Shown here: piece after piece, positions 27,981 through 35,050 of the stretch
How positions within the stretch are numbered: the stretch's first letter is position 1
Layout of the letters: the number at the start of each line of letters is the position of its first letter
Assembly: GCA_030037525.1 (NCBI GenBank)
Contig: JASHRC010000087.1
Coordinates: 1-47,913, forward strand
Reading direction: 5' to 3'
Length of the DNA: 47,913 nucleotides
Source: Candidatus Acidiferrales bacterium
GTDB lineage: Bacteria > Acidobacteriota > Terriglobia > Acidiferrales > UBA7541
Made by a program: the position numbers and the translations under genes
The notes under the pieces: generated by a model
Database searches by the model: none
What the model saw: only the letters and a program-made list of their open reading frames with translations
Told to the model about the DNA's origin: nothing

Positions 27981-29011
27981 GCGCACGGATCGCCGTCGCA
28001 GGCGCCGGCATCTACGGCACGACGATCGCCATCCGGCTCGCGGAGGAGGGGCACCAGGTCCGGCTCTTTGATCCGCTGGGGATTTTGCGCGCCGCATCGG
28101 TCATCAACCAATACAGGATCCACTCCGGCTACCACTACCCGCGCAGCCCGGAAACCATTCAGGAAACGCTGGAAGCACGGGCCGAATTCCTCGAGGCTTT
28201 CGCTCCGGCCATCGTTCGCAACAGCCGGCATTATTACGCAATTCCGCAGGAAGGATCGCAGACGCCGCCCGAGGTGTTTGAAAAAGTGGCGGCCCGGTTT
28301 CAGTTGTTCTGCAAGCCGTGCCGCCCGGACTGGATGAACTTCGGATTCATCGACCGGTGCTACCAGGTCGATGAGCAGATCTACGACCCCGATGTGCTGC
28401 GGGAAATCATCACCTCCCGTCTCGAGGCGCTCGGCGTTCCCTTCGAGCAGCGCGCCTTTAGGCCCGAGCGGCGGCCCGATTACGACTTTGTCGTGTATGC
28501 CACGTATGGACTGGGACCGAGCCGCGGGCTTTTCCGGATTGCCAAATATCAGGTGGCCGAAAAAATCTTGATCGAGCTGCCCAGACAACTCCGCGGTATA
28601 TCGCTGGTGGTCGTCGACGGGCCATTCACGGCGTTTGATCCCTACGGCAGCTCCGAGCGATCGCTCTTCGGTTCGGCAAAACACACCAACCACTGGACCA
28701 CGACCGATCCGCACGAGCCGATTCCGGAGCCTTACGCGAGTCTACTGAACAGGTCCGGGTTCGAGCCGATTTCCTTTTCGCGTTTCGATCGGATGCGGAC
28801 CGATTCCGCCCTGGCCGTTCCGGCGTCCGAGGGAGCCGTCTATCTAGGTTCGCGTTTCACGATCCGCGTCGTGGAAAACAACCCTGCCGAGGACCGGCGC
28901 ACCCTCTATGTCCAAGAGACGGCCCCAGGGGAGATTCACATTTTCTCGGGAAAGGTGGTCGGTGCGGTGAAGGCGGCGCGGCTGGTCAGCGAACGGGTGC
29001 GCCGGGGCTAA
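27977..29011 (+). CDS. FAD-dependent oxidoreductase (DAO-like)
   Basis: A 344-residue flavoprotein of the D-amino-acid-oxidase/glycine-oxidase superfamily. The N-terminal dinucleotide-binding loop [20 protein letters not shown] (6-25) is clear, and the C-terminal segment near [17 protein letters not shown] closes the fold. The N-terminal sequence [18 protein letters not shown] is typical of a subgroup found in polysaccharide loci. It overlaps the glycosyltransferase gene by 4 bases (ATGA), so co-transcription is near certain. Its stop codon overlaps that of the convergent sulfoquinovose synthase gene by 4 bases. The substrate is unknown; oxidation of an amino sugar or other glycolipid precursor is possible. 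Confidence 0.8.
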
Positions 29012-30249
29012 TCGTCCGCCAAAGCTCTCGCGCGCGGCCGGCGCTCCTCGCTGATCGAAGGCTTGGTCGAGCCGAGCTGCCGGTGACGGTCATTGCGCGG
29101 GTTGCGCCAGTTGACCTGCGGCAGGAAGAGCGAGGCGTCGATCCGATCGCGATATTCCATGGCGATATTCATCAGCGAATCCAGCAGCGAATCGGACAGA
29201 TAATGCGGCTGGAGTCCCAGATCGATCAATCGTGAATGCTTGGCGTTGTAGTAATGCGCTTCGGCCTCGACGCGCGGGTCGGGAATATGATCGATCTGCA
29301 CCGCGATTCCCATTTTCTTCCCGGCCGCTTCGACCTTGTGAGCCAGATCCAGCACGGAAAACTGCTCGGTGAACTGGTTAAAGACGCGAAACTCGCCCGG
29401 CGCGGCCGGATGCGTGCACGCAATTTCCACGCAGCGCACCGTGTCCCGAATATCCAGGAAGCCCCGGGTCTGCCCGCCCTTTCCATACACGGTGAGCGGG
29501 TGGCCGACCGCCGCCTGTGCGCAGAAGCGGTTGAGAACGGTGCCGAAGACTTCGTCGTAGTCGAATCGGTTGATCAGCACCTCGTCGAGGGCGGTCTCCT
29601 CGGTCACCGTCCCGTAGACCACACCCTGATTCAGGTCGGTGGCGCGCAATTTCCACGCCTTGCAGCAAAACATGATGTTGTGGCTGTCGTGCACCTTGGA
29701 GAGGTGGTAAAACGAACCGGCCTGCTTGGGATAGGGGAGCACATCTTTGCGGCCGTTGTGCTCGATTTCGATGTACCCCTCTTCGATGTCGATATTCGGC
29801 GTGCCGTACTCGCCCATGGTGCCCAGCTTCACCAGGTGGCAATCGTGCGCAAATTCGCGCAGCGCAAAAAGCAGGTTCAGCGTGCCGACCACATTGTTCA
29901 CCTGCGTGAATGCGGCGTGCCGACGGTCGATCATCGAGTACGGCGCCGAACGTTGCTCGGCAAAATGAACCGCCGAATCAGGCCGAAATTCGCGGATGGC
30001 TTCGGCGAGAAACTCGTAATCGGTGACGTCGCCGATCAGCAGCTCGATCGATTTGCCGGTATGCGCATTCCACGCGCGCAGGCGTTCGGGGAGGGGGCGG
30101 ATGGGGGTAAGGGTCTGAACACCCAGCTCGAAATCCCATTGGCGGCGGATGAAGTTGTCGATGATGGCGACATCGTGACCCCGGTGCGAGAGATACAGCG
30201 CGGTCGCCCAGCCGCAGTAACCGTCTCCACCCAATACGGCAATCCTCAT
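29008..30249 (-). CDS. sqdB: UDP-sulfoquinovose synthase (SQD1/SqdB type)
   Basis: A 413-residue NAD-binding SDR enzyme that makes UDP-sulfoquinovose from UDP-glucose and sulfite. Similarity to plant and cyanobacterial SQD1, as I know those sequences, is very high through residue 350: [15 protein letters not shown] (7-21), [43 protein letters not shown] with Thr144, [14 protein letters not shown] with Tyr181 and Lys185, [50 protein letters not shown]. The last 35 residues are a basic, family-unlike tail. GAGGAGG lies 5 bases before the ATG. It is the last gene of a minus-strand run with two glycosyltransferases. No sqdX-like GT4 is in the window, so the product may not be SQDG. Confidence 0.93.
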
Positions 30250-33197: not shown

Positions 33198-35050
33198 TTC
33201 CTCATCCACAGAAATAGGATCGTTAGTCCCCACAGGTGATATCCCCGATTCGCGCGCCTTTCCAGATGATCGCGCACGCATGCTTCGATGCCTTCTTTGC
33301 GAAATAAATTTCCGTGCTCGGAGGTGCCGTAGTCGAGAGCGTCGCTCATCAGCGGCCGCAGCGGCCCGCGCAGCCATTCGTGCGAAGGAATATCCAGGCC
33401 CGTTTTCTCCTTCCGGAGAACCGAATCCGGCAGCTTCTGCCGCATCAGGGCCTTGAGCACGAATTTCTGGCGCGAACCGCGGATCTTGAAAGATGCCGGA
33501 AGTGCGTTTGCAAATTCCACGATGCGGTGATCAAGAAACGGCGGCCGCACCTCCACCGCATGGGCCATGCTCATGCGGTCGACTTTCATCAGGATGTCGT
33601 CCGCCAGATAGTACTTCTGGTCAAACCACAAATAGGCGGCGAGATCGTCGGGGTGGCGCAACTTGTCGCGCAGCTCGCCCAGCACGCGACCGAGCGCAGC
33701 GGGAAGCTCCAGGCGCAGGAGCGCCGCTTTCTGCTGGTCAGAAAACGTGCCGTTCCAGTAGACGTGAGCCCGCTCGGGAGCGAGCAGGCAGCCCTCCAAG
33801 AAGCGCTTGAGCTTGTATTCGAGGCTGATCTTTTCATCCGAAACGGGCCAAAACCGCAGAGCGGCGAGCGAAAGTTCTACGGCGCGACGCGGAAATTTGC
33901 GCGCCAGGTGAGCCCATTGATTGGCGGGATAGGTGAGATAGCCGCCAAATACCTCATCGCCGCCTTCCCCGCTCAGGGTGACCGTCACTTTGGTCTTGCT
34001 CATCTTCGACAGGAACCAAAGCGGCAGTGCTCCCGCGTCGGCGGTGGGCTCGTCGGAGTAATAGGCGAATTGCTCGATCGCGCCCACCAGGTTCTCGGTG
34101 GGATTCAGATCGAATTGCTCATGATCGGTCCCGTATTGCTGGGCCACTTGCTGGATATACCGAGACTCGTCGAAGCTGCGGCCACGGAACGAAATGGACA
34201 GGGTTTTCAGAGGTACGCTCGATGCCTGCGCGGCGTAGTGAAGGATGGTCGACGAATCGATTCCGCCACTCAGCCACACGCCCAACGGAACGTCGGAGAC
34301 CAGATGCTCGCGCAAAGACTCGCGGAGAAGATGATCCAGTTCTTCTTTGGCGGAATCGAGCGTCTGCGCGCGCGGGGGCACAAACGGCAGGGTCCAATAC
34401 CCCTCGGAGCGAAGCCGGCCATCGCGCCATTCCAGCCAATGCCCCGGAGGCAGCTTTTCGATTCCCTCCACCAGCGTCCAAGGGCAAGGAACATAGTTGA
34501 GCGCGAGATAGCAATCCAGGCCGGCCAGGCTCAAACGCCGCTCTACTTCCGGATGGATCAGGATGGCCTTCAGCTCGGAGCCGAAGTAGAGGTCGTCGCC
34601 GCGCCGGGCGAAATACAGGGGCTTGATCCCCATGCGGTCGCGCGCCAGCACCAGCCGCCGCGCCGACTCGGTCCACAGCGCGACACCAAACATTCCGCGC
34701 AGGCGCGAAAAGCAGGCGACGTCCCATTCCAGAAAAGCGTGCAAAAGGACTTCCGTGTCCGAGCGCGAATGAAACTTGTGTCCGAGCTTCTCGAGCTCGC
34801 CGCGCAATTCCCGATGGTTGTAGATCTCTCCGTTAAAGACGATCACCGTATCGCCGCCATCGGCGAGGATCGGCTGATTGCCCGTAGTGAGGTCGATGAT
34901 TTTTAGGCGTGCCGTGCCGAGGGAAACAAAACTCGACTGGAATACGCCCTGCTGGTCAGGGCCACGGTGAACCAGGGTGTTTACCGCACTTTCGATGCGC
35001 TGGGGATCAGAGGGTCCCTTTCGGTGAGTGAATCCTGCGATCCCGCACAA
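33125..35050 (-). CDS. asnB: Asparagine synthetase family, glutamine-hydrolysing
   Basis: A 641-residue class II amidotransferase. The N-terminal glutaminase starts MCGIAGF, with Cys2 as nucleophile, then NTLVHRGPDQQG and VFNGEIYNHREL. The synthetase domain has the PPi loop LSGGIDSSTIL (260-270) and GEGGDEVFGGY. The start must be the TTG at 35050: only this places Cys at position 2, and CGGAGG lies 10 bases upstream. Homologues in polysaccharide loci sometimes amidate sugar acids rather than aspartate, so the substrate is open. It begins 27 bases after the permease gene and overlaps the GT39 gene, so it belongs to the same transcription unit. Confidence 0.9.
   Translation of the reverse strand: MCGIAGFTHRKGPSDPQRIESAVNTLVHRGPDQQGVFQSSFVSLGTARLKIIDLTTGNQPILADGGDTVIVFNGEIYNHRELRGELEKLGHKFHSRSDTEVLLHAFLEWDVACFSRLRGMFGVALWTESARRLVLARDRMGIKPLYFARRGDDLYFGSELKAILIHPEVERRLSLAGLDCYLALNYVPCPWTLVEGIEKLPPGHWLEWRDGRLRSEGYWTLPFVPPRAQTLDSAKEELDHLLRESLREHLVSDVPLGVWLSGGIDSSTILHYAAQASSVPLKTLSISFRGRSFDESRYIQQVAQQYGTDHEQFDLNPTENLVGAIEQFAYYSDEPTADAGALPLWFLSKMSKTKVTVTLSGEGGDEVFGGYLTYPANQWAHLARKFPRRAVELSLAALRFWPVSDEKISLEYKLKRFLEGCLLAPERAHVYWNGTFSDQQKAALLRLELPAALGRVLGELRDKLRHPDDLAAYLWFDQKYYLADDILMKVDRMSMAHAVEVRPPFLDHRIVEFANALPASFKIRGSRQKFVLKALMRQKLPDSVLRKEKTGLDIPSHEWLRGPLRPLMSDALDYGTSEHGNLFRKEGIEACVRDHLERRANRGYHLWGLTILFLWMRKWGIQTAPSSTPNLRNAESVLTST

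Follow-up and report, generated by a model that had tools for sequence, protein, structure and literature searches.

A plant-type UDP-sulfoquinovose synthase gene in the company of a GT21 glycosyltransferase gene in Acidobacteriota: a possible route to a sulfo-sugar lipid

The stretch of DNA considered here (the window) comprises the 47,913 nucleotides of contig JASHRC010000087.1 from assembly GCA_030037525.1 of a Candidatus Acidiferrales bacterium. Two of its genes are at issue: one for an SQD1/SqdB-type UDP-sulfoquinovose synthase (SQD1; 29008..30249, minus strand, 413 amino acids) and one for an HpnI/ceramide-glucosyltransferase-like lipid glycosyltransferase of family GT21, here called GT21b (26814..27980, plus strand, 388 amino acids). 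The former is assigned by full-length homology and catalytic residues. Its top match in the PDB is Arabidopsis SQD1 (1qrr; E = 2.4e-189), with which it shares 262 of 382 aligned residues (68.6%), and in the alignment to 1qrr Thr144, Tyr181, and Lys185 occupy the catalytic places; the catalytic Thr/Tyr/Lys of UDP-sulfoquinovose synthase are named in PMC4388408. A preliminary description of this DNA, which had seen an unusually close match to this enzyme with the three residues intact, was correct on both counts. The score of 491 bits lies under the equivalog cut-off of NF041015 (575), as do those of four further acidobacterial SQD1 proteins (476 to 543 bits), including one adjacent to SqdX (L133, 476 bits); the cut-off therefore seems tuned to another branch.

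Upstream of SQD1 on the same strand lie three genes whose open reading frames were confirmed, like that of SQD1, at the positions first reported. With increasing distance from SQD1, these encode an ArnC/GtrB-like polyprenyl-phosphate glycosyltransferase (GT2; 30286..31311, 341 amino acids; ArnC 9hwj, E = 1.6e-58), an ArnT-like GT39 transferase (31308..33377; PF13231; ArnT 5ezm, E = 3.8e-32), and an AsnB-type glutamine amidotransferase (33125..35050). Both transferases are placed at the level of family, below equivalog cut-offs (for GT2, NF007986, 213 against 529 bits), and AsnB exceeds the asparagine-synthase cut-off (TIGR01536, 463 against 267 bits) and falls under that of the XrtA amidotransferase (TIGR03108, 522 against 817). 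The reported overlaps also stand: GT2 and GT39 share 4 bases, and the GT39 frame, taken from its first ATG with the true start unsure, overlaps AsnB; 36 bp separate the GT2 stop from the SQD1 start. The plus strand carries three genes that converge on SQD1 and had not been mentioned before, namely, an NAD-dependent epimerase/dehydratase (25689..26627, with the start placed at an internal ATG of a longest frame that begins at 25455; PF01370, 138 bits), GT21b downstream of it, and a DAO-like FAD-dependent oxidoreductase (27977..29011, with the start set from relatives; PF01266, 35 bits). The oxidoreductase shares 4 bases with GT21b at one end and 4 with SQD1 at the other, where the two stops overlap.

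Genome contigs were scanned with peptide patterns of the window SQD1, and the best 80 loci (71 to 90% identical), all titled Acidobacteriota or groups within it, were surveyed for neighbors within 8 kb, with GT39 counted at 50% identity or above and GT21b at 45% or above. GT39 is present in 50 of these loci, GT21b in 49, and both in 38; small EamA-like proteins occur in 44, AsnB in 42, GT2 in 8, and the FAD oxidoreductase and the epimerase in 6 each. Many of the contigs end early, and 30 loci span 8 kb on both sides; here the counts are 19 for GT39, 18 for GT21b, 15 each for AsnB and EamA-like proteins, 3 for GT2, and 1 for SqdX, with GT21b or GT39 present in 22. Because gene order varies widely among the best 80 loci, we conclude that the set of genes around SQD1 is kept but not their order. 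SQD1 and GT39 do recur together, whereas the block of sqdB, GT2, and GT39, whose conservation the preliminary description had named as a test, does not emerge as conserved, and the 8 loci with GT2 rule it out as the defining partner of SQD1 in general. As the best 80 loci were picked by SQD1, they cannot show how frequent GT21b is without it. At 20 loci of distant SQD1 homologues (45 to 68% identical), neither GT39 nor GT21b was found, and SqdX was found at one. A second SQD1 clade (about 60% identical) is present in varied contexts in many genomes of family f5 (L117 to L131), in one case (L118) beside genes that look fabZ-like and lpxA-like by eye only.

The occurrence of the GT39 module is not confined to SQD1 loci. 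Among the 19 fetched GT39 loci that lack SQD1, 18 have AsnB next to GT39 (some of these genomes carry SQD1 elsewhere), GT2 lies near the AsnB-GT39 pair at L158, L159, and L160, and AsnB-GT39-GT2 occurs without SQD1 at L198 and L199. The GT39 proteins near SQD1 fall mostly into one clade (52 of 55 rows, with the long row L070 set aside), which holds one row without SQD1 nearby and lies within a larger family whose members have no SQD1 close by. A role for AsnB in sulfoquinovose chemistry is therefore unsupported, and GT39 can be regarded as a sulfoquinovose-specific clade only in part. In the genome of L173 (contig 46 of G044), a second GT39-AsnB pair lies in a MacB-HK context without SQD1, and a GT39 fragment starts the contig with SQD1.

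GT21b passes the gathering score of Pfam Glyco_transf_21 (PF13506; 108 against 21.7 bits), and its best solved relative is a ceramide glucosyltransferase (26qs/26qf; E about 4e-28); PMC8231724 counts GT21 among the glycoglycerolipid synthase families. The protein scores under the cut-off of the HpnI model TIGR03472 (278 against 310 bits), which is no clean divider, since a GT21 that neighbors GT39 in L162 scores above it (320 bits). In one tree, however, the 56 GT21b rows near SQD1 form one clade apart from the HpnI-type rows, and in a second tree all GT21b rows do likewise (100/100); this separation rules out that GT21b is HpnI, although cut-offs alone do not divide the two. Lys266-Arg267 is present in all 55 aligned GT21b rows (L053 and low-identity rows having been dropped), at a place where eight HpnI-type rows mostly have His-Gln, whereas D136, D138, D229, D230, R269, and W270 are kept in both. 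The window genome has an HpnI-type paralogue of its own (G000:C128), together with HpnJ (709 bits; cut-off, 578) and a pair of small EamA-like proteins. We regard this arrangement, also seen at L182, as a hopanoid cluster (L181 denotes that of the window genome) with a possible flippase pair, which at L182 is weakly ArnE-like (26 to 27 bits against a cut-off of 92). PMC5462960 reports hpnI and hpnJ without hpnK in Acidobacteria subdivisions 1 and 3.

The tie between GT21b and SQD1 also appears when whole genomes are compared. A search of 121 genomes yielded 13 GT21b matches of at least 54% identity, each from a genome that also has SQD1 at 70% or above; SQD1 at that level is present in 18 of the 121. 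Among 399 genomes, GT21b (at least 49% identity, which excludes two GT21 rows at 47 to 48% in G105 and G089) occurs in 56, SQD1 (E <= 1e-180) in 64, and both in 51 (Fisher p = 4e-46, kinship ignored); in 40 of the 51, the two genes lie within about 7 kb, start to start. GT21b tracks SQD1 across genomes more closely than any other gene does (51 of the 56 genomes with GT21b).

Known synthesis of sulfoquinovosyl diacylglycerol (SQDG) pairs SQD1/SqdB with SqdX (GT4) or SqdD (GT8). An Arabidopsis SQD2 sequence, used as the first query for SqdX, found SqdX-like genes near SQD1 in L133, L033, and L036/L144 and gave matches of 50 bits or less in the window genome. With the SqdX-like protein of L133 as the second query, no SqdX was found at E <= 1e-25 in the window genome, which is 93% complete, so that the search for sqdX elsewhere in the genome called for by the preliminary description came back empty; the 12 members of the window's genus in the 399-genome scan likewise gave none at E <= 1e-80. 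One Palleronia GT8 query for SqdD, taken from the neighbors of plasmid SqdB genes and lacking a positive control in the class, had no match in the window genome; the GT2-type neighbors of plasmid SqdB are only weakly similar to GT21b. Adjacent SQD1-SqdX pairs do exist in the same class (L133, L186, L202, and L203), and SqdX lies within 8 kb of SQD1 in 2 of the best 80 loci, neither with GT21b or GT39. SqdX at 65% identity or above to the L133 query is present in 6 of 121 genomes (a seventh has 55%) and in 10 of 399; all of these 10 have SQD1, and 3 also have GT21b. Matches at 50 to 55% were not counted, since of the seven genomes that have no stronger match, five are without SQD1. Where GT21b accompanies SQD1, SqdX is less frequent (3 of 51 genomes, against 7 of 13 with SQD1 but not GT21b; p = 0.0002, uncorrected).

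Five of the 56 GT21b genomes are without SQD1 at the threshold used: G201, G237, and G243, which belong to the window's genus, G281, and G271. In the first four, GT21b adjoins a gene for a putative sulfotransferase, which at E <= 1e-10 occurs in exactly these genomes among 309 (a smaller draw than the 399, in which the inclusion of particular GT21b genomes, such as G271, is uncertain). It was found at no other locus searched, four plasmid loci being left out, and a scan of viral contigs gave no relative. The putative assignment draws on the closest plasmid-borne homologues of this 227-amino-acid protein, which are annotated as sulfotransferase family 2 domain-containing (best 28% identity over 99%; E = 1e-19), on the proximity of an APS kinase in two of the four genomes, and on motifs read by eye. 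The gene order in G201 (L198) is HK-MacB-AsnB-GT39-GT2, GT21b, and then the window's other flank (cyto, S10); G243 shares the HK-MacB side, and in G237 the region is bounded by GT2 and by the cyto gene. Because of these common flanks, all three represent the window's own chromosomal locus. In G201 and G243, the 227-amino-acid protein takes the place that SQD1 and the FAD gene have in the window, between GT2 and GT21b, and it overlaps GT21b by 4 bases or follows it by 35. G237 (L197) has GT2, an LPG_synthase_TM-like protein, an adenosine 5'-phosphosulfate (APS) kinase, the 227-amino-acid protein, GT21b, and the cyto gene. An APS kinase lies near the putative sulfotransferase in two of the four genomes (PF01583; 190 bits in G201 and 173 in G237) and was not seen in the stretches covered for G243, whose contig starts just before GT21b, or for G281, where the putative sulfotransferase stands beside GT21b within a longer frame and at another chromosomal place. 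By the same thresholds, the 12 genomes of the genus among the 399 divide into 8 with SQD1 and GT21b, 3 with the sulfotransferase and GT21b, and 1 with none of the three. On a GT21b tree from which L053, L161, L173, and low-identity rows were left out, the sulfotransferase-linked rows require two changes, and a single clade is rejected (AU test, p = 7e-6), the G237 row having a long end branch. The GT21b of G237 is 66% identical to that of the window and falls within its clade; therefore, SQD1 seems to have been exchanged for the sulfotransferase beside a resident GT21b, which makes this the cleaner swap.

The sulfoquinovose pathway put forward in the preliminary description survives in part. 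The UDP-sulfoquinovose synthase, the lack of a detectable SqdX, and the company of GT39 speak for it; the GT2 block does not hold, and GT21b is the steadier partner. We favor, with a probability of about 0.5, the explanation that the product of the locus is a sulfo-sugar glycolipid or a lipid-linked sugar, with GT21b as the likely sulfoquinovosyltransferase and with sulfonate and sulfate ester as alternatives. What was read from the sequence is the enzyme families, their co-occurrence, and the pairing of SQD1 or a putative sulfotransferase with GT21b. SQD1, given its close homology, would make UDP-sulfoquinovose, and GT21b would move the sulfoquinovose to a membrane lipid, for which diacylglycerol, ceramide, a hopanoid, or a polyprenyl carrier are candidates. 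The small EamA/ArnE-like membrane proteins of relatives could flip the product. AsnB-GT39(-GT2) would be a separate polyprenyl-phosphate module, often present alongside, which may extend or use the product; its action may precede that of GT21b, come after it, or be independent of it. What matters in the system seems to be the sulfo group, as sister species without SQD1 have the putative sulfotransferase, and some an APS kinase, at GT21b. This apparent exchange of sulfonate (SQD1) and sulfate (putative sulfotransferase) is the strongest argument that an acidic sulfo group defines the GT21b product. A more specific version, which we offer tentatively and hold to be clearly less probable, is that Acidobacteriota have an undescribed class of acidic sulfo-glycolipids distinct from SQDG and built by an HpnI-related GT21. 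Their acidic head would be either a sulfonated sugar (SQD1) or a sulfate ester (putative sulfotransferase, with APS kinase), two forms that would have replaced one another two or more times at a single chromosomal site in one genus, perhaps with ArnE-like flipping and use or extension by GT39.

Several observations weigh against this explanation. GT21b is absent from 13 of the 64 genomes with SQD1, and SQD1 and GT21b lie on different contigs in 10 of the 51 joint genomes; in G266, SQD1 and SqdX are adjacent, with GT21b at a distance of 427 kb next to GT39-AsnB. The GT21b proteins of the five loci without SQD1 retain Lys-Arg, so that these residues need not read the sulfonate and may serve the acceptor or the fold. 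The mutual exclusion of SqdX and GT21b was rejected as proof, since on the tree of the 18 SQD1 from the 121-genome set it amounts to two or three independent pairs and is not significant, and three genomes (G050, G154, and G266) hold both; these double carriers could mean that GT21b makes a product other than SQDG. The 227-amino-acid protein misses the Pfam cut-off for Sulfotransfer_2 (13.4 against 22 bits; E = 0.083, the match being seen in one of the four members), and searches of solved structures gave no significant relative. The three sulfotransferase genomes of the genus are drafts, 86 to 89% complete with 2 to 5% contamination, the GT21b of G271 lies at a contig end, and the SQD1 scan of the 399 genomes covered homologues at E <= 1e-180, with weaker ones outside it. 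The GT21b proteins of G201 and G243 are only 55% identical to that of the window and group with that of G281; therefore, GT21b and the sulfotransferase may have arrived there as a pair. Either way, GT21b and a sulfo-group enzyme appear to go together.

Among the alternatives is a form of the route in the preliminary description: GT2 (or GT21b where GT2 is absent) might load undecaprenyl phosphate with sulfoquinovose, small ArnE-like proteins flip it, and GT39 pass it to a periplasmic acceptor. The ArnC-like GT2 and ArnT-like GT39 directly upstream of SQD1 fit this, as do the recurrence of GT39 near SQD1 in many gene orders, the near-single clade of these GT39 proteins, and the frequency of small EamA-like proteins, of which one pair (from L182) is weakly ArnE-like. 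GT2, however, is seldom near SQD1, AsnB-GT39 and AsnB-GT39-GT2 exist without SQD1, so that their sugar is not necessarily sulfoquinovose, and in G050, which retains SQD1 and GT21b, the search yielded no GT39 above 40% identity. We therefore regard this polyprenyl-phosphate/GT39 route as possible but not preferred, and on balance as unlikely.

It is still less probable that UDP-sulfoquinovose feeds a secreted polysaccharide through a glycosyltransferase elsewhere in the genome. Such contexts exist in other Acidobacteriota: at L060, SQD1 (71% identical) lies inside a cluster (7745-16393) that comprises two GT2 genes as well as NusG, Wzz, Wzx-like, and Wzy-like genes, and the SQD1 homologue of L132 is accompanied by a 3'-phosphoadenosine 5'-phosphosulfate (PAPS)/APS reductase, a PseC-like aminotransferase, and a GT2-type enzyme. 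No cluster of this kind is found among the genes annotated at the window locus, however, and the co-occurrence of GT21b with SQD1 is far stronger. The least credible alternative is ordinary SQDG synthesis through an SqdX or SqdD that escaped detection because the genome is incomplete, with the neighbors of SQD1 incidental. Genuine SqdX genes near SQD1 in the class (L033, L036, and L133) and a genome only 93% complete leave some room for it, but the SqdX searches of this genome and of the 12 genomes of its genus speak the other way, as does, within the limits of a query that had no positive control, the single SqdD search. As a separate observation, at L132 (5561-7680, contig 28 of G111) the PAPS/APS reductase (273 bits, cut-off 154) lies directly upstream of the more distant SQD1 (45 to 46%), and the sugar cluster there also has a NeuD-like acetyltransferase; this cluster is likely to serve a sulfoquinovose glycan and to provide the sulfite for it.

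In the literature searched, which lies mostly outside the subscription journals, none of the titles or abstract openings listed describes this locus or bacterial polyprenyl-linked sulfoquinovose. If the sulfo-sugar lipid that we favor is real, it names a new candidate family of sulfoquinovosyltransferases and indicates that sulfonate and sulfate can be interchanged in a lipid or glycan of the bacterial envelope. It would also explain why many soil Acidobacteriota have a plant-type sulfolipid gene without SqdX, and would count as a further source in the sulfoquinovose cycle of soils. Elsewhere in the window (37910-41369) are three adjoining genes that appear, by eye only, to be transglutaminase-like, alpha-E-like, and circularly permuted ATP-grasp-like.

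The proposed system overlaps only partially with those already known. It resembles SQDG synthesis in that the window SQD1 is of the plant and cyanobacterial type and SQD1-SqdX pairs occur in the same class, but no SqdX was found in the window genome, the neighbor is a GT21, and a sister-species version has a putative sulfotransferase. GT21b is paralogous to the HpnI-type gene of its own genome and has conserved residues in common with the HpnI-type proteins, whereas it differs from HpnI, a bacteriohopanetetrol glycosyltransferase, in its separate clade, its score below the cut-off, Lys-Arg in place of mostly His-Gln at 266-267, and linkage to SQD1 instead of HpnJ. Arn/Gtr pathways comprise ArnC, ArnEF, and ArnT; the ArnC-like GT2 and ArnT-like GT39 of the window and the small EamA/ArnE-like proteins of relatives recall these, but GT2 is not conserved with SQD1, the sugar would be a different one, and AsnB-GT39 is independent of SQD1. 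According to PMC4388408, Agl3 of Sulfolobus, about 40% identical to SQD1, supplies UDP-sulfoquinovose for the S-layer N-glycan. Agl3 is thus alike in belonging to the UDP-sulfoquinovose synthase family and in serving a product other than SQDG; it is archaeal, unlike the window SQD1, and has neighbors of other kinds.

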